Origin: a virus
Virus record (IMG/VR): IMGVR_UViG_3300036853_000134
Location: 1-64,000 of that record
Length of the DNA: 64,000 bases
Reading direction: 5' to 3' (one strand)
Made by a program: the position numbers and the translations under genes. Positions 29,579 through 58,924 of this stretch are shown here, in pieces (position 1 is the stretch's first letter; the number at the start of each line of letters is the position of its first letter). The notes beneath the pieces were generated by a model that was not told the origin of the DNA, searched no databases, and saw nothing but the letters and a program-made list of their open reading frames with translations.

Positions 29579-31321
29579 TCACGAAAGCTTGCGCCATCCG
29601 TACTCTTTCTTGCGTTTATCGTCCTCATATTTCTGAACAGCAGCCCGGCGAGCGAGTAGCAACTGACTGCGCGTCTGATCGTCCTCGACATTGGCGATGG
29701 TTTCTATTTTGGCGTGAGTCGGCAGGGCCTGTTCCTGCTGCTCTGATTCGGTCAGTTCAGTTATCGACGGGAACGCTTTGTGAGCGCAGCAGCGAATCAT
29801 GTCCATGTAGTCGTTAAAGAACGCGTACGGCTTGGGTTCCGCCGACTCTTCGCCGCTACGCAGTTTCGCATAATGATATGAGTAAAACTCCGCCTCGACT
29901 CTCGCCCAGGGGCTGTCGGGTTGACGACGTATTTCGTCCGAGTCAGGGACAATGCAGACAAATCGCGTGTGCCCCATCAGGTCCGGATTAAACGGATTTG
30001 GCTTGTCGCGATTGATAACCGTAAGGTAATTGCGCATCTGCGCAATACCGACATTCGGCCCAGCTTTCCAGGTAACAAACGGCAAGCCAGCCTTTTGATA
30101 TTCCAATCGCTCTGACCCGGCTTCGTGTGAACTGATCCATCGATTAATCCGGCCCCGCTCACCCTTGCCAGCGTACCAGTCCGGTAGCAGGTCTTTGTTG
30201 ATCGAGTCTTGCGGCTTGCGGTCACCCATTAACACCAGCATTGCGTCGGCAACTTCAGACGGTGCCATTTGAACGAATTGAAACGGTCGATACATCGCGA
30301 CTAATCCAGGTATCGGCGAATTCTCTGCAGCGGTCGCAAACCATCCTGTTGCGCCTATGTGCCCCTCAGACGTGCCTTGATCTTGTGCGATTGATAATTG
30401 CCAGTGCTCAGGAATGCGACGGACCTTGAAGACTGATTCCCATTGCGACCAGGACACGAATACGTAGCGCGGATCGAACATCCAGTAAATATCCCCGTGC
30501 TCACTGATCGACCAGTCGCCGCGCTTTAATTGTTCGCGTGTGACCATATCCAATTCTGAAAGCGTCTCTTCGTATTCGTGCTGATCCAGATATGGATTGT
30601 CGGCAATACGTGCGGGGATGAACGCTCTATTGGCTTTGCGCCCCTCGCTGTCTTCCGTCTCTTTCCAGAATACACGGTCCTCGACGGCCATCTCTGGCTC
30701 GAAGTCATCGGGAATAAATCGCTTCCGCACCCATTGGGCACCGGCACCGCCAGGATTAGTCGCCGAGCGCATCCTAATCGGTATCTCAACCCCAGCCAGG
30801 CGGCGAAGACGCGAGAACAGATAGGTGTACTGGGTCTCTGTGAATTGGGTTAATTCGTCAAATAGTACGCACTGAAATTCAGACCCCTGGTACTGATATT
30901 TGTCGTTTTCGGATTCAAGGTAGCCAAATGTGATTGTCGCGTTAGACGGAAAGGTCCACTGCTTGCGTTGCTCATTCCAGCGCGCGGGAGTGCTCAACAG
31001 CCACTGTTTCGCACGGTCAATCAACGCACCCGGCTTGCTCAAATCGGAATAAGTACGACGCAGAATCAGCGCAGCGTATCCAGGAATATCAACGTAGCGC
31101 AACGCTTCCATTAGTAGCCAATCCGATTTGCCTCCACCGGCCGCCCCACCGTACAGGATTTCCTTTGATTGGCATTCAATCGCTATCCGCTGTCGAATTG
31201 TCGGAGAGTGCGGAGACCAGCCTTTATTGGCAAGCTTGCGCCGTCTGCGCTCGCGCTCGGCCAGCAGCGCGGCAATGGGATTATTTACAATGTCGTCGGA
31301 TAAGGGTGTCGAGTTGCTCAT
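29579..31321 (-). CDS. terL: Terminase large subunit
   Basis: 580 residues. ATPase: Walker A GGAAGGGKS at ~58-66, Walker B VLFDELTQF at ~152-160, coupling motif SATNPGG. Nuclease (RNase H-like) acids: IAQDQGTSEG and the C-terminal NDYMDMIRC block, typical of TerL enzymes. It translocates DNA into the prohead and cuts it. Its start lies 41 bases inside terS. Nothing is missing. Packaging type (cos, pac) cannot be told from this sequence. Confidence 0.93.
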   Translation of the reverse strand: MSNSTPLSDDIVNNPIAALLAERERRRRKLANKGWSPHSPTIRQRIAIECQSKEILYGGAAGGGKSDWLLMEALRYVDIPGYAALILRRTYSDLSKPGALIDRAKQWLLSTPARWNEQRKQWTFPSNATITFGYLESENDKYQYQGSEFQCVLFDELTQFTETQYTYLFSRLRRLAGVEIPIRMRSATNPGGAGAQWVRKRFIPDDFEPEMAVEDRVFWKETEDSEGRKANRAFIPARIADNPYLDQHEYEETLSELDMVTREQLKRGDWSISEHGDIYWMFDPRYVFVSWSQWESVFKVRRIPEHWQLSIAQDQGTSEGHIGATGWFATAAENSPIPGLVAMYRPFQFVQMAPSEVADAMLVLMGDRKPQDSINKDLLPDWYAGKGERGRINRWISSHEAGSERLEYQKAGLPFVTWKAGPNVGIAQMRNYLTVINRDKPNPFNPDLMGHTRFVCIVPDSDEIRRQPDSPWARVEAEFYSYHYAKLRSGEESAEPKPYAFFNDYMDMIRCCAHKAFPSITELTESEQQEQALPTHAKIETIANVEDDQTRSQLLLARRAAVQKYEDDKRKKEYGWRKLS

Positions 31322-32913: not shown

Positions 32914-32999
32914 CGCCTCTTCCTCCCTTCCAGTCTCTTCAGTTCCTTGTTCAGCCGTTGCCTTACGTCGTCAGGCTGGGGCGCTGTGAGTTTCTTTAT
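32910..32999 (-). CDS. Possible 29-residue basic peptide with ATA start
   Basis: Between the endonuclease VII stop and the methyltransferase is a coding-like frame (KKLTAPQPDDVRQRLNKELK) ending in TGA that overlaps the methyltransferase ATG. No ATG, GTG or TTG precedes it in frame; the only near-start is ATA at 32999. It is either a rare-start peptide, a start lost by one base, or chance. Confidence 0.3.
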   Translation of the reverse strand: MKKLTAPQPDDVRQRLNKELKRLEGRKRR

Positions 33000-33348
33000 G
33001 CCTTATAAGATATTCTATCGCTTTTGCAAGAGAAGTTTGATTATCTTTGAAAAATCCCAGCCCCGAATTACACGATGAACATAAAAGAGCACGAACATTG
33101 CCGGATTCGTGGCAGTGATCGACAACTAATGGGATTGCCGCAAATTCAGCCGCCGGACCATCGCGGAGCACATAATCAAGATCAAATTTCGTCGCGCAAA
33201 TCGAACAGCACCCATCCTGGGCGAGATACATCACTTTATATTCCTTAAACGTAATTCCGTATGTTTTCTGTAGTCTCAGGTTCAGAAGTGTATGTTTCGA
33301 CTTTCCCAGTGATTTAACCTTGTCCCTGTACTTATCAACGTTTTCCAT
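32971..33348 (-). CDS. Recombination endonuclease VII
   Basis: 125 residues. The Endonuclease VII family pattern is clear: CSICATKF, then VDHCHESGNVRALLC and CSSCNSGLGFFKD, giving four Cys for zinc and the DHCH catalytic centre. It resolves branched DNA such as Holliday junctions before packaging. AGGT lies five bases before the ATG. It is the first clear gene leftward after the structured non-coding stretch. Confidence 0.88.
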   Translation of the reverse strand: MENVDKYRDKVKSLGKSKHTLLNLRLQKTYGITFKEYKVMYLAQDGCCSICATKFDLDYVLRDGPAAEFAAIPLVVDHCHESGNVRALLCSSCNSGLGFFKDNQTSLAKAIEYLIRHKETHSAPA

Positions 33349-33394
33349 TCGCTACCTGCTTCCGATTAACCGTCCAAGATTCCGAGGGTTTGAC

Positions 33395-33730
33395 GCACGC
33401 ATAGCTACCTATTAGCTATGCAAAGTATCCGTCCTGAGTTCGTCGGGCCTATACTTCGCGCGGGTTCGTTGAGTTAGGGTTACGGCTATTCGTCTTACCG
33501 CTCGTTACCGATTTATCGTGCCACCCAACCACAGGGGAAGTTCGTCCTTAGGCTCTTTGATTCCCGTTGCTCCCAAGCGAAACGTTGCCCGTCTTACAGA
33601 TGTTTGGTCTGCGGGTCGTTTCCCCTGCCACTGCCAGAATCGTTATTGTCGCCATAACCTGACTTCCTTCGTATACCGCAGGTGCTACCTTGACACGCCA
33701 GGGAATTGTTCAGCGATCCCTGAGTTTGTG
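33395..33730 (-). ncRNA. Candidate structured RNA upstream of endonuclease VII
   Basis: Between 33349 and 33762 no convincing gene was found, but several complementary segments are present: a perfect 9-base hairpin at 33399-33421 with a 5-base loop, an 8-base long-range stem 33532-33539 with 33620-33627, inside it CCCG (33588-33591) with CGGG (33612-33615) stacked near CAGA (33597-33600) with TCTG (33608-33611), and a 6-base stem 33699-33704 with 33717-33722. The leftward orientation is assumed from the operon. A group I intron core was looked for and not established. Confidence 0.4.
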
Positions 33731-33762
33731 AAGACAGAACTTTCCCGACTCGTTAGTTGTGC

Positions 33763-33945
33763 TTAATTGAGTTGTTCGATTCTGATGGTCACGTTTGCGA
33801 CTATACGCCGATTTTCCTTGAAGTCAACCCCTAATCTGTGACACAATGCGCCTAGTAACCGTGAGCCCTTCCAGCTATGGTTTATGTTTTGCCCGGTACG
33901 CATCTTGGTCTGATGGTCACGCACTTTCCAAAAGCTACCGGGCAT
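33763..33945 (-). CDS. Possible 60-residue basic protein
   Basis: ATG at 33945 overlaps the stop of the preceding frame (TAATG). Basic, mixed composition (RLLGALCHRLGVDFKENRR). An inverted repeat GCCCGGTA / TACCGGGC (33891-33898, 33936-33943) and one copy of a repeated 13-mer lie inside it, so it may instead be part of a structured RNA. No family was recognised. Confidence 0.4.
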   Translation of the reverse strand: MPGSFWKVRDHQTKMRTGQNINHSWKGSRLLGALCHRLGVDFKENRRIVANVTIRIEQLN

Positions 33946-34127
33946 TACTGCGTTTTGGGTCGTTTCTCGCACCTATTCTCTTCCGCGATTACCGCCGCGA
34001 TCCCCAGCAATCCGTAATTCCGTTTATCCAAAGTCCAGGCGAGCACCTATCCGCAGTGACTGCATTTCAGGCTATTGGCAGGTGAAAAGTCTTTCGGCCT
34101 CGGTCCGATTATCTCAGGATGCGGCAT
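33945..34127 (-). pseudogene. Frame interrupted by an amber codon, CxxC then hydrophobic segment
   Basis: An ATG at 34127 inside the upstream gene opens a 26-residue frame ending KCSHCG, then TAG (34047-34049), and the same frame continues directly with VLAWTLDKRNYGLLGIAAVIA to a TAA at 33945. Read through the TAG it would be one 60-codon protein with CSHCG.VL, a usual zinc-knuckle pattern. Either two micro-genes (second from GTG at 34046), a nonsense-mutated gene, or chance. Confidence 0.3.
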
Positions 34128-34308
34128 TCTTCCCTTTCGGCCCAGGCTTCTTATTCTTCAGGTTCAACACGTCAACGACCCGCAACAGTTTTGCGGGAGT
34201 ATGGGTGATCAGATTGCCGCGCTTTATATGCTGGGCAATCGACTGTCTTTTCAGCTTTATCAGCCTTGCGGCTTGCGCCTGTGTAATCAATTCGTTTTCA
34301 TTAACCAT
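34114..34308 (-). CDS. Small helix-turn-helix regulator, leaderless
   Basis: 64 residues. ITQAQAARLIKLKRQSIAQH is an excisionase/MerR-type helix-turn-helix; the C-terminus is basic with an AT-hook-like KKPGPKGK. A -10 box (TAGAAT, 34315-34320 read leftward) lies six bases before the ATG and a -35 (TTGCAT, 34338-34343) 17 bases further, so the transcript should start at or next to the ATG. It heads the leftward virion block and faces a strong rightward promoter, so repression or activation of one or both is likely. Confidence 0.75.
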   Translation of the reverse strand: MVNENELITQAQAARLIKLKRQSIAQHIKRGNLITHTPAKLLRVVDVLNLKNKKPGPKGKNAAS

Positions 34309-34314
34309 ATGCCT

Positions 34315-34343
34315 ATTCTAATCTATCTTATTTACATATGCAA
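34315..34343 (-). promoter_or_regulatory. Leftward promoter for the 34114-34308 regulator
   Basis: Read leftward: TTGCAT, 17 bases, TAGAAT, six bases, ATG. The spacing predicts a leaderless message. Just to the right, TTTAC repeats (within 34374-34399) could be operator sites shared with the rightward promoter. Confidence 0.6.
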
Positions 34344-34419
34344 TATAATTCTATAAACTTTCTTTCCCTTTACTTGCTATGATTTACAGGGAATTTACGA
34401 TATTAGCTAAATAATTATG

Positions 34420-34448
34420 TTGACACTTGTTCCAAGCGGGTGTATCTT
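34420..34448 (+). promoter_or_regulatory. Strong rightward promoter P34.4
   Basis: TTGACA (34420-34425), 17 bases, TATCTT (34443-34448). The 12 bases AATTATGTTGAC (34413-34424) recur at the promoter at 37774. It drives the small-gene block from 34483. Confidence 0.75.
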
Positions 34449-34482
34449 CTTGACAGTTCGAGAGAGAAAAGGGAGAAAGACG

Positions 34483-34815
34483 ATGGAGATCGACATTCAG
34501 GCAACTTTACAGAACTACCAGCACCATATGGAAATTGCCGGCAACTATAGCGACGAGGATAAAGCTCAATATATGAGATACGCAGAGAGCGATTACGCTT
34601 TTATCCCCCTGGAATATCTCGTGTTTAAGTCTCCAAGGCCCACAATGAACGAGATTACAATCATCGGCAACTACGAAGCGGCAATAGAGATCGTCACGTT
34701 TTCATTGGCAGCGTCAACGCCTGGTTCGCTGGCTATCCGCGCAAAGATTGAACGAATCAGCAGCTACCTCAACGAGCAAGTCCAAAAGAACTTGACGGCT
34801 ATTGAGCAATCATAA
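34483..34815 (+). CDS. Small early protein, function unknown
   Basis: 110 residues from the ATG at 34483, with GGGAG seven bases upstream; an in-frame ATG at 34417 lies before the promoter's start point and is rejected. Mostly helical, acidic (NYSDEDKAQYMRYAESDYAF) with a C-terminal coil. First gene after the strong promoter. No family was recognised. Confidence 0.7.
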   Translation: MEIDIQATLQNYQHHMEIAGNYSDEDKAQYMRYAESDYAFIPLEYLVFKSPRPTMNEITIIGNYEAAIEIVTFSLAASTPGSLAIRAKIERISSYLNEQVQKNLTAIEQS

Positions 34816-34826
34816 AAGGAGCACCC

Positions 34827-35006
34827 ATGCTATTCAAATCACCCGTCACCCCAGTCCGCTACTACTTGCGCTTCGACACCGGCGATTACCTGCTCACCTT
34901 CGACGGGCTACGCCGCGAGTTCGATACGCTCACTGATTTGCTTGCGTACGCGACGGCGGAGAATCTCAGGGATTACACGTGGAAATCTATTGGTGGGAAT
35001 TTATAA
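34827..35006 (+). CDS. 59-residue protein, function unknown
   Basis: GGAG lies before the ATG at 34827. Mixed alpha/beta with many aromatic residues (RYYLRFDTGDYLLTFDG). Tightly spaced in the early block (11 bases after the previous stop, 10 before the next ATG). No family was recognised. Confidence 0.6.
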   Translation: MLFKSPVTPVRYYLRFDTGDYLLTFDGLRREFDTLTDLLAYATAENLRDYTWKSIGGNL

Positions 35007-35016
35007 GGAGAATACT

Positions 35017-35178
35017 ATGAGCACTTTAACGATCTATCGATGGACGATTCTTGAAGCGTGGGGCATCGCCGAGATTCACTATGACAGGACCGCCAAAGAG
35101 ATCGCTGAGATTGCCGCAATATGGACGGATTTCGCGGTCAAGAATACTGCGCGCATCAGAATGGAGGTATCCGCCTAA
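35017..35178 (+). CDS. 53-residue protein, function unknown
   Basis: GGAG six bases before the ATG at 35017; an in-frame ATG at 34942 is rejected. Trp-containing helix (TIYRWTILEAWGIAEIHYD) and a second helix (AKEIAEIAAIWTDF). No family was recognised. Confidence 0.6.
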   Translation: MSTLTIYRWTILEAWGIAEIHYDRTAKEIAEIAAIWTDFAVKNTARIRMEVSA

Positions 35179-35206
35179 TACGCAAAATGCCATAATCTAC
35201 CCACGA

Positions 35207-35255
35207 CGGCCAGCCCCTCTGGGGTGCAGGGCGCGTTAAAGCCCAAGGCTGGCCG
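35207..35255 (+). ncRNA. Compact three-way-junction RNA element
   Basis: Outer stem CGGCCAG (35207-35213) with CTGGCCG (35249-35255); inside it a hairpin CCCC-TCT-GGGG (35214-35224) and a second GGGC (35229-35232) with GCCC (35241-35244). The outer pairing can be extended by two at the cost of the first hairpin. No T-run follows, so it is not an intrinsic terminator. It lies in the gap 35179-35337 between two small genes; orientation is assumed from the operon. It could control the next gene or stop RNA decay. Confidence 0.5.
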
Positions 35256-35337
35256 CTCGTGTTCACTATTGAACAGCCGTCAGGTACGCCCGTTGCTATC
35301 CTGATATTGCGCCCTAATCTTTCAACGAGGTATGACA

Positions 35338-35487
35338 ATGACGAAACACGAAACTGACAAACAACAGGCGATAAGGGATCTGGAATCGCTCCGCAACAAA
35401 CGCGCGCAGGCGATTGCCGCTGGGGATCAAGCGGCCGTGACCGCGCTCGACAAGCAGATAGCCGAAGCTGAAGCTAAAGCTGGCTAA
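35338..35487 (+). CDS. 49-residue charged coiled-coil protein
   Basis: GAGG seven bases before the ATG at 35338 (an ATG six bases earlier is in frame). Entirely helical and charged (DLESLRNKRAQAIAAGDQAA). Possibly a small oligomer or inhibitor; no family was recognised. Confidence 0.6.
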   Translation: MTKHETDKQQAIRDLESLRNKRAQAIAAGDQAAVTALDKQIAEAEAKAG

Positions 35488-35521
35488 TCGAAGAGGCGGG
35501 ACAGCAAACCGCCACAACTTA

Positions 35522-35530
35522 TGATATAAA
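35522..35530 (+). promoter_or_regulatory. Extended -10 promoter for leaderless 35537 gene
   Basis: TGATATAAA: an extended -10 (TGnTATAAA) with the ATG six bases after the box and no Shine-Dalgarno site. The same arrangement, TGGTATAAATA then six bases to GTG, occurs before 36156. Confidence 0.5.
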
Positions 35531-35536
35531 TACGCT

Positions 35537-35809
35537 ATGTCAACAATCGATCCATACGAACTCGCCGACAGACTTTGCAAAGAACATCCATTGATTTCCA
35601 CCGCAAAAGGAATTCACGGCGGCCAGCCTCATCTAGACCGTGTTCGCTTGCGAGTCACGGACATACTAGGCTTCCTGTTTCAATACAAAACCGTTGACTG
35701 GATTGTCCAGAACTACGCGCCCGATGTGAGTGAAGAGCAGGTTCTAGCCGCCATTGCGTGGGCCCAGGATTTCATCGAGGAAGCCTGCGACCCGCGTCGG
35801 CTCAAGTGA
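35537..35809 (+). CDS. DUF433-like protein, leaderless
   Basis: 90 residues. GIHGGQPHLDRVRLRVTDIL followed by a TVDWIVQNY helix and EEQVLAAIAWAQDFIEEA matches the DUF433 pattern (a small helix-turn-helix fold often found as antitoxin or regulator). The ATG is six bases after an extended -10, so the message is probably leaderless. No toxin is adjacent. Role as a DNA-binding regulator is inference. Confidence 0.7.
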   Translation: MSTIDPYELADRLCKEHPLISTAKGIHGGQPHLDRVRLRVTDILGFLFQYKTVDWIVQNYAPDVSEEQVLAAIAWAQDFIEEACDPRRLK

Positions 35810-35842
35810 CAACGCCGTGTCAGTGTGCCATACTCCCTCAGA

Positions 35843-35897
35843 GCGACCGGCTTTGAATGCCTACTCCGTGATAAGAGTTCCATTGTTGTCCGGTCGC
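35843..35897 (+). repeat. Inverted repeat with 8-base arms
   Basis: GCGACCGG (35843-35850) and CCGGTCGC (35890-35897), perfect, 39-base spacer, in the gap between the DUF433-like gene and the next. Possible mRNA stem. Confidence 0.4.
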
Positions 35898-35925
35898 AAT
35901 CTTAATACCCCAGGCTGGAGACGTG

Positions 35926-36108
35926 ATGCTACTTTTATCCGCTGAATCCGCACCGCTGTTGTTGATTGTGATGATTGTCCTTGCCGCTATCGCTTGCTTC
36001 GGAAGCCCTTACTTCGGGTTTGGCACTAATCGACCGTATATTTATTACGGTGGCGGCCTTGCCTTATTTTTGGTTCTGCTGCTGCTCATCCTAGGCGTCC
36101 ATCCGTAA
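35926..36108 (+). CDS. Two-helix membrane protein (holin-like)
   Basis: 60 residues from the ATG at 35926 (GGAG five bases upstream). Two membrane segments, about residues 8-26 (APLLLIVMIVLAAIACFG) and 41-58 (GGGLALFLVLLLLILGV), joined by a short Tyr/Gly-rich loop. Size and layout fit a class II holin or a small membrane modulator; the position in the early block speaks a little against a holin. Confidence 0.6.
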   Translation: MLLLSAESAPLLLIVMIVLAAIACFGSPYFGFGTNRPYIYYGGGLALFLVLLLLILGVHP

Positions 36109-36120
36109 CAGGAATTTGAT

Positions 36121-36149
36121 TTGTTTGGCGACCCTCTCCGTGGTATAAA
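36121..36149 (+). promoter_or_regulatory. Promoter for leaderless 36156 gene
   Basis: TTGTTT (36121-36126), 17 bases, TATAAA (36144-36149) with an extended TGn; the GTG start follows after six bases. Confidence 0.55.
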
Positions 36150-36155
36150 TAGCGC

Positions 36156-36515
36156 GTGGAAATCAACATTAATGTTCACATTCACCATTACGGCGACTCT
36201 GAAATATTGACTCGCCTTGATAAAATTGAAGCTTCAATAAAGAGAGGAATTGACGATATGGCACTATCAGTACAGGAAATCAAAGCCGCGATTTTGGCGG
36301 GAAACGCAGATATTAAGCAGCACGTGACCGACGCCGGAGCGCGCGTGACATCAACGGTCAATGTGCTGACTCAGAAGATTGCAGACCTGGAGGCGAAGGT
36401 AGGCGAGACGTTGACCCAGGCTGACCTTGACGAGATTAAGGCCGCTCAGACGGACGTTATCGCCGCAGCGGATTCAGTTGATCCGAATTCACCAAGTCCG
36501 ACACCGATTGCATAA
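36156..36515 (+). CDS. Coiled-coil protein, leaderless
   Basis: 119 residues from a GTG at 36156 with no Shine-Dalgarno site and a -10 box six bases away. A short beta segment with His (INVHIHHYGD) is followed by a long coiled coil (QEIKAAILAGNADIKQHV, then VLTQKIADLEAKVGETL) and a Pro/Ser tail. It resembles small phage coil proteins of unknown role. It converges on the YopX gene. Confidence 0.65.
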   Translation: MEININVHIHHYGDSEILTRLDKIEASIKRGIDDMALSVQEIKAAILAGNADIKQHVTDAGARVTSTVNVLTQKIADLEAKVGETLTQADLDEIKAAQTDVIAAADSVDPNSPSPTPIA

Positions 36516-37136: not shown

Positions 37137-37516
37137 TTTGCACCGTTCCGTTTCTTTGCTCTGGCGCATCGCTGCCTAATCTTATCCGGCATCCACGGAC
37201 GCAGACGATCACGAGCATTGTCCGCAATCGTCCCCGTTTCCAGGTGGTTAGGATTGCAGCACGGCGGGTTATCACATTTATGCCTCATAACTAATCTTTC
37301 ACCCTTTTCATTAAATTCTGGATAGGGTCCGAATGAAAATACATACGCGCCTTGTGGTGCTGTATTCACACCGATTAGAGCGCAAGAAAAGTAGCCATAG
37401 CCCTTTTTGGTGCGGCCGCGCTGTCATTCCCAGCATTGGCGAGGATTCCCAATCCGAATACGCTCCCAAAAGCCAGAACGGACGCGCTCCAGATATTTAT
37501 GATCCGCCTTGGTCAT
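37133..37516 (-). pseudogene. HNH endonuclease with in-frame UGA at a conserved Trp
   Basis: 128 codons from the ATG at 37516 (GGGAGG seven bases upstream, ATGA overlap with the regulator stop) to 37133. Codon 31 is TGA (37424-37426). The sequence around it, CWE[TGA]QRGRTKKGYGYF, matches the HNH pattern in which C-W-x-W precedes GYG, so TGA stands where Trp (TGG) is expected. The rest is a full HNH: RHKCDNPPCCNPNHL then GTIADNARD. Either a one-base nonsense mutation, or UGA read-through. A downstream GTG (37369) could give a 78-residue remnant. Confidence 0.7.
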
Positions 37517-37707
37517 TTCTTCGGCCTCCCTCTTTGTTTATTCCGCGCCAGAATAACATTCATTCCGCGCTGATTAAATATTATGATTCGCCCAAGCTTT
37601 CTATAGTGCAGCCCTTCTCGTAATTCGGCCTTTGCAATCTGGCGCACTCGCTCAGGCGTAATACCCGCATCAGTAGCGGCTCTTTGTATTGTTAGTTCAA
37701 TTGCCAT
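37513..37707 (-). CDS. Small helix-turn-helix regulator, leaderless
   Basis: 64 residues from the ATG at 37707. ATDAGITPERVRQIAKAELR is a helix-turn-helix and the C-terminus is AT-hook-like (RGRPKK), as in the regulator at 34114. A -10 box (TATAAT, 37714-37719 read leftward, extended TG) lies six bases before the ATG; an in-frame start at 37764 lies upstream of it and is rejected. A 6-base inverted repeat, ATCGTT (37708-37713) and AACGAT (37725-37730), straddles the -10 and suits autoregulation. Confidence 0.75.
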   Translation of the reverse strand: MAIELTIQRAATDAGITPERVRQIAKAELREGLHYRKLGRIIIFNQRGMNVILARNKQRGRPKK

Positions 37708-37713: not shown

Positions 37714-37741
37714 ATTATACATAGAACGATTTTCAATGCAA
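37714..37741 (-). promoter_or_regulatory. Leftward promoter for the 37513-37707 regulator
   Basis: Read leftward: TTGCAT (37736-37741), 16 bases, TATAAT, six bases, ATG. The same -35 hexamer is used at 34338. The flanking ATCGTT/AACGAT repeat may be its operator. Confidence 0.6.
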
Positions 37742-37773
37742 CTATTATTTATTGGCGAAAACAAAGAATTATG

Positions 37774-37802
37774 TTGACTCGCTCATTCTCCAATGCTACA
37801 TT
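37774..37802 (+). promoter_or_regulatory. Rightward promoter P37.8
   Basis: TTGACT (37774-37779), 17 bases, TACATT (37797-37802). Preceded by AATTATGTTGAC (37767-37778), identical to the promoter at 34420, so both may answer to one factor. It drives the block 37856-42197. Confidence 0.7.
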
Positions 37803-37855: not shown

Positions 37856-38062
37856 ATGGCAACCACAACGAGACCACTTGAGATGTTCAACAGGAAAACA
37901 ACGTTCTCAGCGATCAGACAGGGCGAATCGTTCATGTTTGACCGGGATGGCGCGATAACAATTTGGAAGAAATCCGGCGATGGATGCACCGACCAGGAAA
38001 GACGCTTGGTGTTCATTCCCGCCAACGCTCCGGTGCTGGCTTCTAATAGATCGCGGCGATAG
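37856..38062 (+). CDS. 68-residue protein, function unknown
   Basis: GGGAG eight bases before the ATG. Beta-rich with basic ends (GESFMFDRDGAITIWKKSGD). First gene after P37.8. No family was recognised. Confidence 0.6.
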   Translation: MATTTRPLEMFNRKTTFSAIRQGESFMFDRDGAITIWKKSGDGCTDQERRLVFIPANAPVLASNRSRR

Positions 38063-38093
38063 ATAGCCCCGCACGCGGGCAGGAGGTTGAGAG

Positions 38094-38306
38094 ATGGTCA
38101 AAGAGCCAAACAAGCGCGAGCAGGCCGCCATAGATGCCCTAGTCAAGCTATCAAAGACATGGCCTGATTCGTTAATGCTGTTTTCAAATAGTGGTACGCT
38201 GGAAGTACTGCGATACTCAGATTACAACAAAAACAATGCGTGCCAAGAGCTGGCAACGATAGACATCCACAACGACGGCGGGGATAGAGACACATTTCTC
38301 GAATAG
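38094..38306 (+). CDS. 70-residue protein, function unknown
   Basis: GGAGG before the ATG. N-terminal helix (REQAAIDALVKLSKTWPD), then two strands (LMLFSNSGTLEVLRY) and an acidic end. No family was recognised. Confidence 0.6.
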   Translation: MVKEPNKREQAAIDALVKLSKTWPDSLMLFSNSGTLEVLRYSDYNKNNACQELATIDIHNDGGDRDTFLE

Positions 38307-38328
38307 CCCCACACGGGCGAGGAGCACT

Positions 38329-38493
38329 ATGGGAATCGTGATGGAAGCGGATGCGCCCGAGCCTAACTATTGCATTCAATGTCTACGAATCGACACACTC
38401 ACCGAGGTTGCCGATCCTGACGACCTTTGCCCTGAATGCGAAAAGGATATGGCGCGGTTTATGAATGGATTGGGAGGTAGCAATGCCAAATAG
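38329..38493 (+). CDS. 54-residue zinc-ribbon protein
   Basis: GAGGAG before the ATG at 38329. CIQC and CPEC, 19 residues apart, make a ribbon; the spacer is acidic. Overlaps the next gene's start. One of about ten such small ribbons in this block. Confidence 0.65.
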   Translation: MGIVMEADAPEPNYCIQCLRIDTLTEVADPDDLCPECEKDMARFMNGLGGSNAK

Positions 38494-38878
38494 CGAGCTT
38501 TCGCCGCTGGAACTATCAATATTCCGCGCACTCCAACATGGTCCAGCAACAGCCGCGCTGATATGCGATGCCTATAGATCACCTTTTGCCGGTGACCGCG
38601 AGATAATGGCAGCAATCGCGTCGCTCATCAGCAATTCGTATGTGATCGGCTCGTCCGACACGCCGATCCGCTACAGCATAACCGCCAGCCCCGCATCAGA
38701 GTTCGTGAAATATTTGGAGGAGCGGATTAAGGACTGGAACGATGAAATTGATGCGCTGAATGCGGCCGGAGTCGTCAATAAATCATACAGAGAGCATATG
38801 AACGCGTTCACAACCGCTCGTGACGAGGACGTTGATATTCTGAGGCAATTCAAACGCCTGAACGGAATGGAGATTTAA
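38483..38878 (+). CDS. Winged-helix-like protein with coiled coil
   Basis: 131 residues from the ATG at 38483 (GGAGG five bases upstream; an in-frame ATG at 38465 rejected). LSPLELSIFRALQHGPATAA and the following helix-strand part resemble a winged helix; the C-terminal half is a charged coil. Possible DNA-binding regulator. Confidence 0.6.
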   Translation: MPNSELSPLELSIFRALQHGPATAALICDAYRSPFAGDREIMAAIASLISNSYVIGSSDTPIRYSITASPASEFVKYLEERIKDWNDEIDALNAAGVVNKSYREHMNAFTTARDEDVDILRQFKRLNGMEI

Positions 38879-39103
38879 ATGGAATCAATTTTCACCGCGA
38901 TATTCAGATCCGCCGAGACTGCCAAACGGATTTCCACGCGCCTGATCGACAAGCAGATTAACGGCTGTTACATCGAATTTGATTACACGGGTAATCAATG
39001 GCTCGTTAAAAAGTGGGGCATCGTCCAGGGGCGGGCGAAGCTGTTGAAAGAGGCGTGCGAGATTGCGACGGATGGGAAGTTGAGTTTTAAGGGAAAGGTT
39101 TAA
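38879..39103 (+). CDS. 74-residue protein, function unknown
   Basis: ATG directly follows the upstream stop, GGAG six bases away. Helix (AETAKRISTRLIDKQI) then beta strands with QWLVKKWGIVQGR. No family was recognised. Confidence 0.6.
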   Translation: MESIFTAIFRSAETAKRISTRLIDKQINGCYIEFDYTGNQWLVKKWGIVQGRAKLLKEACEIATDGKLSFKGKV

Positions 39104-39104
39104 G

Positions 39105-39434
39105 ATGCCATACGGACAGTGTAAACGATGCGGTGATAACGGGGCGCAGCCGATTGAGCCAGACTCAAAACTGTATCTCTGTTATGCCTGCGCGGAGGCT
39201 AAGCGAAAAGAAGATAATCCTGTAACCGTCGAATCCCTCCCGCCCACGGACACGCGGGGAGATGTTGAGGCGCTGAAGAGTTTTGACGAATACCTGAATA
39301 CAGAACTGGCACGGGCGCGCCACATAATGAAAACCAGTGCGCACGGACGCCATGTTGATGAGGCGTCCACCGGCGAGGATTATTTGTTGATGATACAGGC
39401 TGAATTCCGACGCCGGTTTCTGGAGGGCAAATGA
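39105..39434 (+). CDS. Zinc-ribbon protein with helical C-terminus
   Basis: 109 residues. CKRCGDNG and CYACAEAK give a zinc ribbon in the first 35 residues, followed by a Pro/Asp linker and a long helix (EALKSFDEYLNTELARARHI). ATGA overlap with the next gene. No family was recognised. Confidence 0.65.
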   Translation: MPYGQCKRCGDNGAQPIEPDSKLYLCYACAEAKRKEDNPVTVESLPPTDTRGDVEALKSFDEYLNTELARARHIMKTSAHGRHVDEASTGEDYLLMIQAEFRRRFLEGK

Positions 39435-40216
39435 GCAAACTTAAAGAAGCATTTGACGCATATCGTAACTGGCTGAAACAGACCGGACGCGGGATGGGGA
39501 GCGATGAATTCATAGCACTTGAAGAGCAGATCGCCATTGCGACCGCGCCCACGTTGGCAAAGGACAATAACGATAAATGGATACCATTCGGGCGGATAAA
39601 GGTGGACATTGAAAATGAGACTGAAACGTTTGAGAGATATGATCCTAAAGCGGCGACCGCGGCCGCTGATGGATTGCGCGAACGGATACGGGCGGCTCTC
39701 ATAGACGATGAATCACTATCAATCCACGCAGCGCCAGATGTCGAGCAGTATTGCCTGTTAATGGAGGCCGCGCTTGATCGGATTGCCGACATCGCGGCAC
39801 GGGTCGCCCAGGAGCGGGCTGGCGGGGGAATTGACAAGACGAAACTCTGTAAATGGCTTAATAGTACATCGGACCATCTCAGAGTTTACGCGCAACGGCC
39901 CGATCTAGATTCTGATTACGCATCGGATGCGGATTCTAAAAGTACTGGATACAGGTCCTTATTGCAGATGATCAGCAATGGCGACTTCGACCAGCCCGCG
40001 CCCGTGAGCGAGGATGATCGCCTGTTCAATCTTCTGATTACCAGCGTCAAGCAGGCCGTTGACGACTTTGACCTGGTGGATTCTGAAAGCATTTCACGGT
40101 CTTATCGATATGGCAGGCAGCTTTGCGAGTCAATGGTCATCGTGAAAGCTGCTTTATTAGCAATTGAAACAAGGCAAATAGCAGCCGCGATGACCAAGGA
40201 GGATCATGGAAACTGA
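39431..40216 (+). CDS. Helical protein of the early block, function unknown
   Basis: 261 residues, the largest in this block. Mostly helical and acidic with Ala-rich parts (ATAAADGLRERIRAALIDDE, then AALDRIADIAARVAQE). No catalytic motif. Its start overlaps the zinc-ribbon stop and its end overlaps the Lar-like gene, so it is translated as part of that series. Confidence 0.7.
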   Translation: MSKLKEAFDAYRNWLKQTGRGMGSDEFIALEEQIAIATAPTLAKDNNDKWIPFGRIKVDIENETETFERYDPKAATAAADGLRERIRAALIDDESLSIHAAPDVEQYCLLMEAALDRIADIAARVAQERAGGGIDKTKLCKWLNSTSDHLRVYAQRPDLDSDYASDADSKSTGYRSLLQMISNGDFDQPAPVSEDDRLFNLLITSVKQAVDDFDLVDSESISRSYRYGRQLCESMVIVKAALLAIETRQIAAAMTKEDHGN

Positions 40217-40577
40217 ATTGAAGCCGTGTCCCTCCTGCAGGGCGAACGATGACGATAATATCTATGAGATGACGCTATATCTGAGCGTTAAGATGATCGG
40301 CTGTGCCCAGTGTGGCTTAAAAGGCCCAACGGGAGGCGCAGCGGAAGCCCGCGACAAATGGAACGCTCTCCCCAGGCGTCCGCGCTACGAGAAGAGGATT
40401 CCGACCGAACCGGGCTGGTATTGGCGTAATAAGCAAATAGTAAAGGTTTATAGATTTCAATCACGACTCTGGGCGGATTGGGCAACAGGCAAATGCACTA
40501 TCGATGACGATGGAGAGAAACGGAGCGATGTGTTATGGGCAGGTCCAATCCCCGAACCGGAGGCCGCCAATGGTTAA
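40206..40577 (+). CDS. Lar-like restriction alleviation protein
   Basis: 123 residues. The N-terminal 55 residues match the Lar pattern: LKPCPSC, CAQCGLKGP, then AEARDKWNALP. Lar proteins modulate type I restriction in the host; activity here is by homology only. The C-terminal half (TEPGWYWRNKQIVKVY then WADWATGK) is a separate small beta domain seen next to Lar domains in phages. Confidence 0.75.
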   Translation: METELKPCPSCRANDDDNIYEMTLYLSVKMIGCAQCGLKGPTGGAAEARDKWNALPRRPRYEKRIPTEPGWYWRNKQIVKVYRFQSRLWADWATGKCTIDDDGEKRSDVLWAGPIPEPEAANG

Positions 40578-40821
40578 ATTGACGACGGCGCAAGATCAAG
40601 TAATCAAACCGTTAGCGTCGGGCAAGTCGATTCGATCATGTTTAGCTGGCTGGACCGTTCCGGGCGAGAACGTCTTGATTAGCCGAGACAGAGTCAGTGT
40701 ATTACGACAAGAAGGATTAGTAGATGCCCGGCAGTCGGGAATGTGGTTTTGGTTGAGCCTTACCCCGGCCGGTATCGAATATGCAAAATCAAAAGGATGG
40801 TTGAAAGATGGTTCAGTTTAA
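40570..40821 (+). CDS. Small winged-helix-like protein
   Basis: 83 residues from the ATG at 40570 (GGAGG six bases upstream; an in-frame ATG at 40504 rejected). LTTAQDQVIKPLASGKSI, then RDRVSVLRQEGLVDARQ and a strand fit a winged helix. No partner is known. Confidence 0.6.
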   Translation: MVKLTTAQDQVIKPLASGKSIRSCLAGWTVPGENVLISRDRVSVLRQEGLVDARQSGMWFWLSLTPAGIEYAKSKGWLKDGSV

Positions 40822-41011
40822 ATCATTGGACGATGCTGGGGATCGCTGGTATAGCCGGACGGAAGCAAGCCCACCCTCGTTAGTGGATGTTCTTGTGGTC
40901 GGGAATAACGGCAGAATGGAAGTCAGGCAATTCCACAGCCGATACCCGGACTGGTTTAACATAACCCATTGGCGTAAATTACCATCGCCACCGGAGGCCA
41001 CCAATGATTGA
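40808..41011 (+). CDS. DUF551-like protein
   Basis: 67 residues. W-Y near the start, a PPSLVDVLVVGNNGRMEV strand pair and the end ITHWRKLPSPP match the DUF551 layout (a short phage/prophage family of unknown role whose members end in HWxPLPxPP). Confidence 0.65.
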   Translation: MVQFKSLDDAGDRWYSRTEASPPSLVDVLVVGNNGRMEVRQFHSRYPDWFNITHWRKLPSPPEATND

Positions 41012-41162
41012 CCCCATCGCCGCGCGCCTCACGGTCATAGCCCGGCAGAATCGGGAGATTGCCGCAAGGATGATCCAGCGGCGTAGCGTACAATGGACGA
41101 TGACCCGGCACAACAGCGAGGAAGTGCTGGTGCAGCGGGCGAAGAAACGACGGAGGAAATGA
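41004..41162 (+). CDS. 52-residue basic protein
   Basis: GGAGG six bases before the ATG at 41004; the stop overlaps the next ATG. Strongly basic helix (IAARLTVIARQNREIAARMI, end RAKKRRRK). Probably nucleic-acid binding. Confidence 0.55.
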   Translation: MIDPIAARLTVIARQNREIAARMIQRRSVQWTMTRHNSEEVLVQRAKKRRRK

Positions 41163-41596
41163 TGAGCAATTTGAAGGTTGCGCTTACAAAAGCCCAATGG
41201 CGAACGGTAAAGGCTCTCCACGATGGACAGAAATTATTTTGGTCACGTCCTGAGAATTCATACTTTATCGGGATTCCAGGAACATCTACATGGCGACGGA
41301 CGCAACAAATAACCGTATTTGAATTGAAAGCGGCGGGGATGATCGACGGCAGGCTGGCGCTGACCCTAGATGGAACCAAGCTTGCCAGGGTGAGATCTGG
41401 CCGCAGTGGGGTGGTTCCGCGATGCGACAACTGTAGCCTCTGGACTAGAGAAGGTGATTCACAGATTGGCCGTTGCGGATTTGGTTTTGCGCAGCCGATA
41501 GCTATTAGTGATAATCCACAAGTTACCGACGCTCATTACTGCTGCAATAATTGGGCATCAAAAAAGGATCAAGAGGCCGAGTTGAGGGAACTATGA
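41162..41596 (+). CDS. Winged-helix protein with Cys cluster
   Basis: 144 residues from the ATG at 41162 (GGAGG five bases upstream; an in-frame start at 41093 rejected). N-terminal TKAQWRTVKALHDGQKLF and TVFELKAAGMIDGRLALT make a winged helix; the C-terminal part has five Cys (CDNC, RCGFG, YCCNNW), likely one zinc or iron-sulphur site. Possible regulator. Confidence 0.65.
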   Translation: MSNLKVALTKAQWRTVKALHDGQKLFWSRPENSYFIGIPGTSTWRRTQQITVFELKAAGMIDGRLALTLDGTKLARVRSGRSGVVPRCDNCSLWTREGDSQIGRCGFGFAQPIAISDNPQVTDAHYCCNNWASKKDQEAELREL

Positions 41597-41793
41597 AAGC
41601 ACACGAATTCTTTACCCGTCTTTTCTGTCGCCACGATTTCAGGTTTGCGCTCGATCTGTTTCTGGCGATTGAGCCGAGATATAAGAGTCTTTGGATTTGC
41701 TATAAATGTGACGCCGCCGAGGTGAGAGACTATTTTTATTGGAGCGATGAGGGGCGGAGGATAAGGAGTAAACATGTCGGCAGCGCCCACTGA
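41593..41793 (+). CDS. 66-residue zinc-ribbon-like protein
   Basis: ATGA overlap at 41593; an in-frame ATG at 41551 is rejected. FCRHDFRFAL and CYKCDAAE give Cys/His pairs; the shape LWICYKCDAAEVRDY is usual in small phage ribbons. No specific family. Confidence 0.6.
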   Translation: MKAHEFFTRLFCRHDFRFALDLFLAIEPRYKSLWICYKCDAAEVRDYFYWSDEGRRIRSKHVGSAH

Positions 41794-42055
41794 TAATATT
41801 GACGAGCTTTATATCGTGTACAAGGATATGACGCCCGACGAAGTATTCGACTGCGATAAGGAGACCGTCCAGAATTTCATCAAATGGTGCGAAGCGCGAG
41901 GAATCGAACTGCGCCAAGATATTGGCGGCGGGGATTATCGAACGTGGACGCCCGGCATGAATCTGGACGGCCTACTTGGTTTATACCGAAAGGATGCTAT
42001 TAATGCCTACAGAATGGACGATGCTACCGGAAAAGAAACTAATAGCGCGGATTAA
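41774..42055 (+). CDS. 93-residue acidic protein
   Basis: GGAG six bases before the ATG. Acidic helix (TPDEVFDCDKETVQNFIKWC), then a loop with GGGDYRTWTPGMNLDGL. No family was recognised. Confidence 0.6.
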   Translation: MSAAPTDNIDELYIVYKDMTPDEVFDCDKETVQNFIKWCEARGIELRQDIGGGDYRTWTPGMNLDGLLGLYRKDAINAYRMDDATGKETNSAD

Positions 42056-45507: not shown

Positions 45508-45854
45508 ACGGCTAACTCGTATCCATCATCGGTCGGACGAATAAATTTGACCGGCTTCTTATATTCATCGGCGATCAATATTTCCGCGCTGATACCTTTG
45601 GATTCCCGCCAACCATCAATCATCAGTATCCAAAGTTCGTCACAGCGGGATATGAATTCCGTATCGAACTTGCGCCAGAATCCCCAATCGCCGGGCATCA
45701 TGAACAAAACGGCTATTGGATGATTATGAACTATGGGCGAAAAAACGACCGTATCGTTTTGCGTATAGAACGCGACGCATTGAAGGGCGGCATGGTAGCG
45801 CGCCTCTCTTATGCCAGGGTCTTTGTGTGAGTATGGCGACGCAAGATAAATCAC
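45504..45854 (-). CDS. DUF1937 family protein (deoxyribosyltransferase-like fold)
   Basis: 116 residues from a GTG at 45854 that overlaps the upstream stop (GTGA). The family pattern is plain: MIYLASPYSHKDP, FSPIVHNHPIA, DWGFWRKFD, CDELWILMIDGW, S.G..AEI. The fold is related to nucleoside 2-deoxyribosyltransferases and nucleotide-binding proteins; the role in phages is not established, perhaps handling modified nucleotides. Confidence 0.85.
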   Translation of the reverse strand: MIYLASPYSHKDPGIREARYHAALQCVAFYTQNDTVVFSPIVHNHPIAVLFMMPGDWGFWRKFDTEFISRCDELWILMIDGWRESKGISAEILIADEYKKPVKFIRPTDDGYELAV

Positions 45855-48157
45855 GCGGTTTCCTCCATGTTCTCAATTCCGGCAAACAGCCCCTGAGCGC
45901 CAGACGCATAAATAGCGCGCTCCATATTCTTGCTGGCGGCTCTGAAATATTCCGGCTTTAATTCGCAGCCGATACCTTTGCGTCCAAGTAGCAGTGATTG
46001 ATAAACCTCAGTGCCAATACCAAGAAAAGGGGTCAGGACTATTTCACCGGGATTTGACCACAATCGCACGCACCTTTCAACGGTCTCTAATTGAAGTGGT
46101 GCAATATGTCGCTCATCCTCTTGCCCCCGACCTTCCGCCGCGCTCAACGTTGCGGTTTCTTTTATGTCGTACCAGACGGGATGCGCCCATTTGATCCATT
46201 GTTCGTGACTCACGTCGGGATGGATTGCAACTTCGTTTTCACCGGGCTTGTGGAATATCAGAATATAATCTGCAAGCGCAGGGCGCAGCCAGCTCGAATC
46301 TTTTCGCAACTGGACGAACATCAGGCTTTTCGATTTCGTTCTAATTGCCTGTGATTGCGGGTTCTTTTGTATACAAATCTCCCCATAATATATAAAGCCT
46401 TTGTCGATAAAATGCCTGATTGTTTCCCCGCGAAAATCCATCATTCCGATGTAACCGTCCCGACCCTTCATCATTGGGATTTGCGCGACGTGAACACACA
46501 TTGAGCGGCCGGGCTTGAGCACGCGGAGCATATTTGACGAGATGAATTGAAAGTGCTCCCAGAATTCCGTCATCGTTTTACAGTTACCCAGATCCCTTTC
46601 GGTTGCCGAATAAGTGAATAGCGACCCGAATGGCGGAGAGTAAACCGAAAGATCAATGGAATTGTCAGGCAGTCCCGCAAGCACTTCGCAGGAATCACCG
46701 TGATAGATTGAATAGTCGTCGCCGTGTTTCTGGTTCATCACCTGAACATCAGCCGCTTTGGTGCCGAGCCATTTTGGTATTTGCATTGGCTGTACCGCGT
46801 CGTAATCCAGACGCGTCGTAACTTGTCCAATTTCCGCTTTCTCAAATTCGGCAACGTGTTTGATTAGCTCTTTCGTCATCGTGTCCGCCTCTCTCTCTTT
46901 TCGCAAAACGTTATCAAAAATATCCATTTCAATATCGGTCAGCACAATATAAACATTGACCGGCCGTGTTTGACCGAATCGCCACTCGCGCCGGATACCC
47001 TGAAAATATTCCTCATAGCTGTCATTCATTCCAAGGAAGAGCATGCGCGCGGCCGATTGAAAGTTCATCCCCTGCCCGGCAATCTTAGGCTTACTTATCA
47101 TCGTCTTGACTTCGCCCCGACCGAAGCCCATCAGGGTTTCCGTTTTACGCTCGATTGAATCACTGCCCTGAACGTTGACCGCATTGCCCAGTGCTTTTGC
47201 CAGCGCATCAGCTTCATCGTTCAGTCCGCACCAAATCAGCCATTGCTCATCCGGTTCTCGCTGGATTATTTCGACGGCCGCCTTGACCCGCTCGGCGATT
47301 GTTGATTTACGGACCTTTGCGCGGTCACCTACACCATGCAGACGGGTCGGGAATAATTGCCCATCGGGAACATAAGTTGACGGGACGACAACGGGAATGA
47401 TGCTCAACTCCGGCAAATCATATCCAGTGTCATCATGTCCAATATCCGATGGCTTGAGCAGCGACATTGCCCAGGATGCAAGCCACTTGTGGAACGCATC
47501 ACGTCCATGTTTTTTCAATCGCCAGCCATCTTCGTCATGAACAAAAAACGTCGATAGCATTTCCGTTCGTGTCATCACGCCAAGGAATTCGGCATGGTTC
47601 GCAATCTCCGAGATATCATTAGGGGCAGGTGTGGCTGTACAGCAAAGACGCAGCGGAATTACAGAGCAAAGCTTTATCAGTAAAGATCGGCGTTTGCCTT
47701 CAAAATGCTTCAGGCAGCTTGATTCGTCCAGAACGACCGCGCCGAATTTCGACATATTGAAATGCTCAATCATCTCGTAATTGATAATCGTGATACCGGA
47801 TTCCGGCGACTCTTCCATCTTGCGCGCATACGTGACCTTGATGCCCCACCTCGCGCCTTCTTCAACAGTTTGATGAGCAACCGCAAGCGGAGCGATTACA
47901 AGCGAGCGTCGCGCGGCCAGTTCGGCCCAGGACAACTGCATAATCGTCTTGCCAAGGCCAGTGGTAGCGAAAAGCGCGGATCGTCCTTTACGCAGTGACC
48001 ATCGCACTAAATCACGTTGAAACGGAAATAGATTCTTATTTAAGTCAGCGGCGTCAACCTCAAATCCGGCCGCAGATGCAACGACAGCTTTCGTTGAAAG
48101 AAACTCTTGATAAGAACTTGATATTGCGTTAGATTGCTCAACAGGCATTTGATTCAC
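45851..48157 (-). CDS. Fused superfamily-2 helicase and DNA methyltransferase
   Basis: 768 residues. Helicase part (~1-450): Q-like FPFQRDLVRW, Walker A ATTGLGKT at ~64-71, a DESS (DExx) box in VVLDESSCLKHF, TATPAPND, and C-terminal motifs with PKIAGQGMNFQSA and QGIRREWRFGQTRPV. Methyltransferase part (~490-768): YSPPFGS (motif IV of N4-C/N6-A type) and LTPFLGIGTEV (motif I). Such fusions occur in environmental phages. It may translocate DNA and modify it, or act in replication/anti-restriction. No nuclease motif was seen. Confidence 0.85.
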   Translation of the reverse strand: MNQMPVEQSNAISSSYQEFLSTKAVVASAAGFEVDAADLNKNLFPFQRDLVRWSLRKGRSALFATTGLGKTIMQLSWAELAARRSLVIAPLAVAHQTVEEGARWGIKVTYARKMEESPESGITIINYEMIEHFNMSKFGAVVLDESSCLKHFEGKRRSLLIKLCSVIPLRLCCTATPAPNDISEIANHAEFLGVMTRTEMLSTFFVHDEDGWRLKKHGRDAFHKWLASWAMSLLKPSDIGHDDTGYDLPELSIIPVVVPSTYVPDGQLFPTRLHGVGDRAKVRKSTIAERVKAAVEIIQREPDEQWLIWCGLNDEADALAKALGNAVNVQGSDSIERKTETLMGFGRGEVKTMISKPKIAGQGMNFQSAARMLFLGMNDSYEEYFQGIRREWRFGQTRPVNVYIVLTDIEMDIFDNVLRKEREADTMTKELIKHVAEFEKAEIGQVTTRLDYDAVQPMQIPKWLGTKAADVQVMNQKHGDDYSIYHGDSCEVLAGLPDNSIDLSVYSPPFGSLFTYSATERDLGNCKTMTEFWEHFQFISSNMLRVLKPGRSMCVHVAQIPMMKGRDGYIGMMDFRGETIRHFIDKGFIYYGEICIQKNPQSQAIRTKSKSLMFVQLRKDSSWLRPALADYILIFHKPGENEVAIHPDVSHEQWIKWAHPVWYDIKETATLSAAEGRGQEDERHIAPLQLETVERCVRLWSNPGEIVLTPFLGIGTEVYQSLLLGRKGIGCELKPEYFRAASKNMERAIYASGAQGLFAGIENMEETA

Positions 48158-52991: not shown

Positions 52992-53237
52992 CTACCTTTC
53001 CAGTTTCCTCAACTCTCGTATCTGAACCGCCTCGCTCTGATTCGCCGCCAGCCATTTACTCGCTAATTCAAGCTGTCGCGGGAAAGACGCGGGCGTGCCC
53101 TTTGCCGCAATCGGAGCGGTCACGATCTTGCGTGAGCGCCGCGGCGAGCCTTTGACGAACAGGCGACCGTCGAGCTTCGCCTGTTGACGCTCGCGCTTGG
53201 CCTGTAATAGTTGCGCTAACTTTCGTGCGAAAAACAT
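52992..53237 (-). CDS. Basic 81-residue protein
   Basis: GGAGG before the ATG; it starts inside the 3' end of the upstream gene. Highly basic (KLAQLLQAKRERQQAKLDGR, SPRRSRK). Probably nucleic-acid binding; no family. Confidence 0.55.
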   Translation of the reverse strand: MFFARKLAQLLQAKRERQQAKLDGRLFVKGSPRRSRKIVTAPIAAKGTPASFPRQLELASKWLAANQSEAVQIRELRKLER

Positions 53238-53987
53238 TTAACCTCCGGGAATTCGTGATATTCAACGCCGTTCAGCAGGTGACCGAGTTCGCCGGAATAT
53301 TTGCCGCCGATCTGTTTGAAGAAGTACGGAACTTTGAACGCCTCGCACTGTTCGCGCAAATGTTCAGCGCTATCAATATCCAGCGGTCTATAGTTTGCGC
53401 CGCTCTCGCCGCCGACAATTATCCAATCAACCACCCCGGCCTGCAGAAATCTTATAATGTCCATTCTTCCCAGTAATGGCTCAACGGAAAGCCACCGGAG
53501 AGTTGCGGGAACTCTGGCCAGGATCGGGATTCTAATATTTGCGTATTCCTGATTTTCAACGGTCGCGCCAAGCCAGACGTTCGATTGTGGTTTATCAAGC
53601 CATTCTTCCGGCAGGAAGCGGCTATAATTTTCAGGGCGCTTCGTGAGCAATTGCCAGTCAAGGAACGGAGTCTTTTCAATCAACGACCACAACCGCGTGC
53701 GGGCTTCGTTCAGCGCGGGATGATCTTCGCAAATGTCAGCCATCGACGCGCAAAATACCTTTCGGCGAACCCCTTCCTTTTGGGCCTTCGCGTTCCATTT
53801 AATAGGCTCGTTCCAGTGCTTATCACCGAAGAATCGACGCTCTGTATCCGGCCCCCATATCTGAAACCCGGTCCTCTTCGCAAAAGTATCCGCATAGCAA
53901 CTCGTACAGGCCGGACTGATTTTCACGCAGCCCCACCAGGGGTTAAAACGTATGATCAGTCCAGCTAATCCCAGTAATTTCGCCCAT
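53216..53987 (-). pseudogene. Gp37/Gp68-family protein with +1 frameshift near the N-terminus
   Basis: The ATG at 53987 (GGAG eight bases upstream) opens MGEITGISWTDHTF then TAA (53943-53945). In the +1 frame the sequence continues as NPWWGCVKISPACTSCYAD, exactly the Gp37/Gp68 (DUF5131) signature FNPWxGC.K.SPgC..CYA. The switch site is ACG TTT TAA C: four T allow Phe-tRNA to slip +1 at a stop codon, as in prfB. The remainder (VGGESGANYRPLD, KQIGG) is intact to residue ~257. Either an indel, or programmed frameshifting. Function of the family is unknown; it resembles radical-SAM folds. Confidence 0.75.
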
Positions 53988-54568: not shown

Positions 54569-54627
54569 GATTCAATTATACGATGGACAGCAGATGAATG
54601 TCCATGAAATTCCAGTTGTTTCACCCA

Positions 54628-58785: not shown

Positions 58786-58814
58786 ACAATAAACCCGTCC
58801 AGTCTACTTGTCAA
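58786..58814 (-). promoter_or_regulatory. Leftward promoter of the early block
   Basis: Read leftward: TTGACA (58809-58814), 17 bases, TATTGT (58786-58791), seven bases, ATG of the ribbon-helix-helix gene. GTCCA and TGGAC flank the -35 region as a possible operator. Confidence 0.65.
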
Positions 58815-58924
58815 CACTTATTTCTACTTTTGGACACTAACTGCAAAAATAAATTTATCGCAAAATTATTTCATCCCATCAGGCGCGGGGTTCGCTTGAG
58901 CAGGATTGGCGCGAGGCTGGGCGG

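Follow-up and report, generated by a model that had tools for sequence, protein, structure and literature searches.

Predicted leaderless starts of three small putative regulators at the divergent promoters of a tailed phage

Each divergent gene boundary in the window (the whole stretch analysed, bases 1–64000 of a 66,935-base virus record that may be incomplete) holds one short leftward gene whose ATG directly follows the −10 hexamer of a promoter, with no usable SD motif between the two and with a rightward promoter opposite. Our preferred reading, which we hold to be fairly probable, is that these genes encode three small DNA-binding regulators, made from leaderless mRNAs and autoregulated at divergent promoters in the manner of lambda cI. 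The record belongs to a tailed phage, as judged from matches to terminase (29579–31321, minus strand), portal and major head protein, and searches of the phage collection and of viral contigs gave no close relative. A simple codon-based caller gave 91 genes, missing three that are relevant here (37513–37707, 37856–38062 and 54017–54568). The strand blocks of the called genes meet at three divergent and three convergent boundaries, the divergent ones, near 34.3–34.5, 37.1–38.1 and 58.8–60.1 kb, being exactly the sites of the three small genes. These genes, referred to as proteins 1 to 3 in order of position, and their promoters are the following.

34114–34308, minus strand: protein 1, 64 residues, HTH protein, excisionase/MerR-like (phrog_2907, E 7e-4), with a leaderless-type start
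34315–34343, minus strand: predicted promoter TTGCAT-17-TAGAAT, −10 ending 6 nt 5' of ATG 34308
37513–37707, minus strand: protein 2, 64 residues, HTH protein (phrog_2655, E 1.2e-4), with C-terminal RGRPKK
37714–37741, minus strand: predicted promoter TTGCAT-16-TATAAT, −10 ending 6 nt 5' of ATG 37707
58572–58778, minus strand: protein 3, 68 residues, ribbon-helix-helix-like by eye from its sequence pattern, with a low-confidence structure model
58786–58814, minus strand: predicted promoter TTGACA-17-TATTGT, −10 ending 7 nt 5' of ATG 58778

Coordinates, −10 hexamers and spacings of the three leftward promoters, re-read in the sequence, agree with the preliminary description of this DNA, as does its statement that the three genes lack a usable ribosome site: no motif stands 4–12 nt upstream of 34308 or 58778, the start at 37707 was judged by inspection, and an AGG 3 nt before ATG 34308 is taken as too near for an SD. 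A TANNNT hexamer precedes all three ATGs, with its first T at 12, 12 and 13 bp. Every ATG or GTG opening at least 45 codons (976 starts) was scored for a −10 ending 5–8 nt upstream together with a spaced −35, and the three genes take ranks 2 (58778, score 12.8), 3 (37707, 12.7) and 4 (34308, 11.1), with rank 1 going to a nuclease gene at 54568 (13.0). A score of at least 12 is reached by three of the 976 starts, namely the two regulators 58778 and 37707 and the nuclease gene, versus about 0.4 expected from a window background of 0.00039 per position (Poisson about 0.007). Dinucleotide shuffles of the upstream 60 nt matched the observed score once per 1000 for 54568, never for 58778 and 37707, and 10 times for 34308. 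At all four starts the ATG-proximal promoter is the top scorer within 200 nt upstream, and the in-frame alternative ATG at 37722, 15 nt upstream of 37707, has a leaderless score of just 6.3.

It is unlikely that the three genes instead carry ordinary leaders from promoters farther upstream, with the ATG-proximal −10 hexamers being chance or secondary occurrences. Weaker promoter-like sites do lie upstream at each site, with predicted leaders of 5–143 nt, the best being at 58778 (score 10.0, leader of about 61 nt), but the ATG-proximal sites outscore them throughout (11.1 versus 8.6 at 34308, 12.8 versus 6.8 at 37707 and 12.8 versus 10.0 at 58778), and at none of the three does an SD stand at a distance usable for a leadered start. 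From these sequence features we consider leaderless initiation of the three genes likely. In the portion cited of a study of Lactococcus, leaders of 4–14 nt were not found (PMC10986495), in agreement with transcripts beginning at the three ATGs or very close to them.

As to the proteins themselves, the HTH class given earlier to the first two has weak PHROG matches in its favour, with Pfam matches below cut-offs, while the ribbon-helix-helix class given to the third finds no profile or PDB support: Pfam, PHROG and NCBIfam returned no match, PDB none that is meaningful, and the structure model consists of two helices at low confidence (pLDDT 59.9). The model of protein 2 (pLDDT 59.0) was, like that of protein 3, left out of fold searches; the C-terminal RGRPKK of protein 2 we take to be AT-hook-like. 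Homology of proteins 1 and 2 was considered and dropped, as BLASTP gave no alignment. Close relatives of proteins 1 to 3 turned up neither when viral contigs were scanned with peptide patterns nor when phage records were searched by tblastn. The minus-strand gene 45851–48157 encodes a helicase fused to an N6/N4 methyltransferase and has relatives at 40–51% identity in 20 viral contigs; in these contigs, which share only this fusion, protein 1 had a single weak match, whereas proteins 2 and 3 and the RecT-like protein had none. Proteins 1 and 2 might be excisionase-like recombination factors or DNA-architecture proteins, not transcription switches, a reading that we find rather unlikely. The top PHROG matches of both carry the excisionase name, but a search of the 66.9-kb record, possibly incomplete, with PF00589 and PF00239 detected neither a tyrosine nor a serine recombinase, the weak PHROG matches of protein 1 include MerR-like and excisionase/transcriptional regulator families as well, and the genes are located at divergent promoters. 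As the 66,935-base record showed no member of an integrase or resolvase family, a lysogeny switch is not indicated. We keep to regulators as the preferred reading, an identity that is weakly assigned for the first two proteins and unproven for the third.

At the border of the structural block, the gene of protein 1 is the first to run leftward. Opposite the three leftward promoters lie the following rightward features.

34420–34448, plus strand: predicted promoter TTGACA-17-TATCTT, read from the sequence
34483–34815, plus strand: SD-led gene opening the rightward block 34483–36515, ribosome site in the sequence
37774–37802, plus strand: predicted promoter TTGACT-17-TACATT, read from the sequence
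37856–38062, plus strand: SD-led gene opening the rightward block 37856–42055, ribosome site in the sequence
59041–59070, plus strand: predicted promoter TTGACA-18-TATATT, read from the sequence

The predicted starts of the opposing transcripts lie about 147, 102 and 299 bp apart at sites 1, 2 and 3. In layout, the description of each site as a divergent switch facing the TTGAC promoter of an SD-led operon fits the first two sites, whereas at the third the promoter is present and the compact switch is not: the rightward promoter lies some 300 bp off and is followed by a non-coding stretch of about 445 nt and then by an HNH gene. The third site comprises these further features.

58803–58838, no strand assigned: candidate operator, two tandem 16-nt repeats, 13/16 identical and 20 bp apart
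59077–59521, plus strand: about 445 nt without a convincing ORF, between the promoter at 59041 and the first gene
59522–60079, plus strand: HNH endonuclease-like gene (phrog_5200, E 7e-10), GTG start with AGGAG 8 nt upstream

The first of the tandem repeats (58803; the second begins at 58823) covers the leftward −35 at 58809–58814, and 3 of 500 shuffles reached the 13/16 identity in a test picked after the repeat had been seen. The intergenic regions of sites 1 and 2 hold short and imperfect repeats at most. An exact 12-mer, AATTATGTTGAC, lies over the −35 of the two rightward promoters there (34413–34424 and 37767–37778) and is unique to them window-wide; it and the tandem repeat at 58803 are candidate control sites. 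Between 58778 and 59041 there is also an inverted repeat (58932–58990) with 15-nt arms, 93% complementary, and a 29-nt spacer, and a 13-mer, made up of overlapping exact 12-mer matches, is common to the non-coding DNA at 58987–58999 and to 54594–54606, over the promoter of the nuclease gene at 54568.

In the reading that we prefer, a −10 directly before the ATG would set the transcription start such that each regulator gene is transcribed, and translated, as a leaderless mRNA. Each regulator would most likely bind the intergenic DNA common to both promoters, limit its own promoter and so be autoregulated, and repress or tune the opposing SD-led promoter, as lambda cI, expressed from PRM, does at PR. 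The leaderless start would then probably be no special translational signal but a consequence of fitting start codon, operator and promoter into a single short element. The gene at 58778 heads an unbroken leftward recombination/replication block that runs down to 42323 and includes the RecT-like gene 56050–57111 and the helicase-methyltransferase gene; being first in this block, its predicted leaderless message would head the transcript of the block.

The non-coding stretch at 59 kb has a counterpart of about 450 nt without a convincing ORF at 33345–33793 (minus strand), behind a promoter at 33827–33800 and directly followed by the gene 32971–33348, and both stretches have a strong sigma70-type promoter before them and an HNH or endonuclease VII gene directly after. 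Rfam searches of the two gave nothing at the gathering cut-off and, at E of 5 or below, one chance-level match in one of them; their folding energies are ordinary (z −0.66 and +0.68), and no similar phage DNA was found beyond chance. Aligned with each other they score 147.5 versus 115 ± 8.9 for shuffles (1 of 500 as high). Membership of one RNA family was rejected: a coding-region segment from 51601 scored 156 against one of the stretches, so that the similarity between the two is not convincing.

The preliminary description had further held that leaderless start is reserved for regulators and that ribosome sites precede every other early gene. Neither proposition survives, the first because the strongest leaderless-type promoter of the window precedes a nuclease gene.

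54017–54568, minus strand: 183-residue HNH/endonuclease VII-like gene (phrog_2255, E 1.4e-6; phrog_1035, E 3.7e-6)
54575–54604, minus strand: predicted promoter TGGACA-18-TATAAT, −10 ending 6 nt 5' of ATG 54568

Pfam gave no match for 54017–54568. With the top-ranked start belonging to a nuclease gene the regulator-only rule fails. An inverted repeat, ATGGACA/TGTCCAT, overlies this promoter. The gene is flanked by two DUF5131-like N-termini, MGETTGISWT upstream (54628) and MGEITGISWT downstream (53987), and is placed as if inserted at the start of a DUF5131 gene (Pfam DUF5131 at 53216–53926), the downstream N-terminus being out of frame with the remainder of the DUF5131 ORF. As to the second proposition, 8 of the 58 called genes from 34114 on have no motif of the SD list, and six of these eight are other than the three regulators (the 37707 gene having been missed by the caller); three of the six adjoin or overlap the preceding gene and may be coupled. 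Two further leaderless candidates score lower, a GTG at 36156 (9.8) and the start of the DUF433 gene at 35537 (6.2; Pfam E 8e-10). TATAAA stands six nt before the ATG of 35537 and the GTG of 36156, and the two genes (35537–35809, DUF433, and 36156–36515, coiled-coil-like) have near-identical TATAAATA contexts six nt 5' of their starts; both may be weak leaderless starts within the rightward block.

These additional starts also bear on the suggestion that leaderless initiation acts as a host-state sensor, with the regulators being favoured when 70S or stress-altered ribosomes abound, which we regard as improbable. Leaderless messages can initiate on 70S ribosomes, as stated in the abstract of PMC9031893, but leaderless-type starts in this phage extend beyond regulators, and the review itself describes the factors proposed to regulate leaderless translation as acting globally, their physiological role as little known and the MazF model as not reproduced elsewhere.

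Other viral contigs were considered as well. A first survey applied the same kind of leaderless score, with a cut-off of at least 11, to 25 loci of contigs fetched for unrelated proteins and gave 10 matches, 8 of them distinct (L027 being merged with L009 and L020 with L019): four small regulators (L009, L015, L018 and L019), an HNH gene (L024), a transposase (L025), one gene of unknown function and a probable antisense ORF, six of the 8 with PHROG support. At L009, on an unrelated contig, an HTH gene with TTGACA-17-TATATT-6-ATG faces SD-led leftward genes across 148 bp, the mirror image of the arrangement described here; it matches excisionase/MerR-like PHROGs and shows weak similarity to protein 1 (39% identity over 31 residues, 5–35, E 0.01). 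The L019 gene is not divergent, the gene opposite L015 has no clear SD, and L018 has no clear SD-led gene opposite. A wider scan of viral contigs for TTGACA-16/18-TATAAT-6/7-ATG yielded at least 120 loci (L028–L147). Among the 120 loci listed, the ATG placed 6 or 7 nt behind the promoter opens an ORF of at least 40 codons in 83 of 129 cases, versus 9483 of 35500 (27%) for all ATGs and, among the same listed loci, 7 of 28 for five other classes of spacing. A promoter so placed is therefore a mark of genuine gene starts.

The genes are of many kinds: in a sample of 96 leaderless-type proteins, drawn from 143 loci, the most frequent families (within the best 25 of 165 and of 79 families) include UvsY, DNA primase, exonuclease, helicase, terminase small subunit and homing endonucleases. 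Most of this sample was chosen by the promoter pattern itself, so that it tells what such genes are and not how frequent they are. Homing nucleases account for 3/96 (GIY-YIG) and 2/96 (HNH_3), and are not among the best 25 of 65 families of 96 length-matched SD-led proteins, with the PHROGs search covering the leaderless-type proteins. In the 120 loci listed, start-codon-fused consensus promoters precede T4-like replication, repair and packaging genes, the T4-like naming being partly by eye. A general phage rule that leaderless start marks regulators was discarded in view of these many T4-like genes. A more speculative proposal, for which we see some chance though a small one, is that in uncultured phages the start-codon-fused promoter may be a portable gene form for units that have to function wherever they are inserted or to lead a transcript of their own, namely mobile nucleases that stand free (HNH, GIY-YIG, TnpB-like) and small regulators. 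If true, the element score alone would find regulators and selfish genes missed by profile searches.

Turning to known systems, the lambda repressor cI is made at PRM, opposite PR, from a leaderless mRNA that diverges from a strong promoter. PY54 cI and cro each have one leaderless mRNA species, in the passage cited (PMC4488713), and PaaR2 of a cryptic prophage is described in the cited excerpt as leaderless "like cI" and lies opposite ydaS over 97 bp (PMC8630535). The present genes resemble all three in being small regulators, leaderless by prediction, with a short intergenic region to a strong divergent promoter. They differ in that lambda, PY54 and PaaR2 represent temperate-phage repressors with mapped starts and operators, whereas here there are three sites, predicted from sequence alone, in a phage record in which an integrase was not found. 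CvkR, the MerR-type repressor of a type V-K CAST, is likewise a regulator of the MerR/HTH type in a mobile element, leaderless as ours are predicted to be, and adjoins the gene that it represses; according to the part cited of PMC9938897, however, CvkR and cas12k are both leaderless, with start codons 82 nt apart, whereas the rightward genes here are SD-led. Controller genes of restriction systems are commonly leaderless, as the cited part of the C.Csp231I paper has it (PMC4824078). Our proteins would, like these C proteins, be autoregulatory controllers on leaderless transcripts, but no R-M cassette follows them. In bacteria, TANNNT about 12 bp 5' of the start codon is given as a mark of leaderless genes in the section cited of Zheng et al. 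2011 (PMC3160421); the −10-like signals described here stand at that distance, and the TA-led class, as presented there, is genome-wide and of many functions, not regulator-specific. For phages, the cited part of the AR9 paper states that transcripts are often leaderless (PMC5312081).

We regard the observation as real and as another example of an arrangement already known. Its exclusivity to regulators and its host-state meaning are not supported, and the finding does not imply that regulators are picked out, or the state of the host sensed, by leaderless initiation. What it does offer is a set of clear predicted transcription starts for a phage that lacks close relatives and, in start-codon-proximal consensus promoters, a usable annotation signal for environmental phages that covers many gene functions. 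To the known systems the present case adds, modestly, that one such gene stands at every divergent boundary of the window and that a nuclease gene uses the same device.
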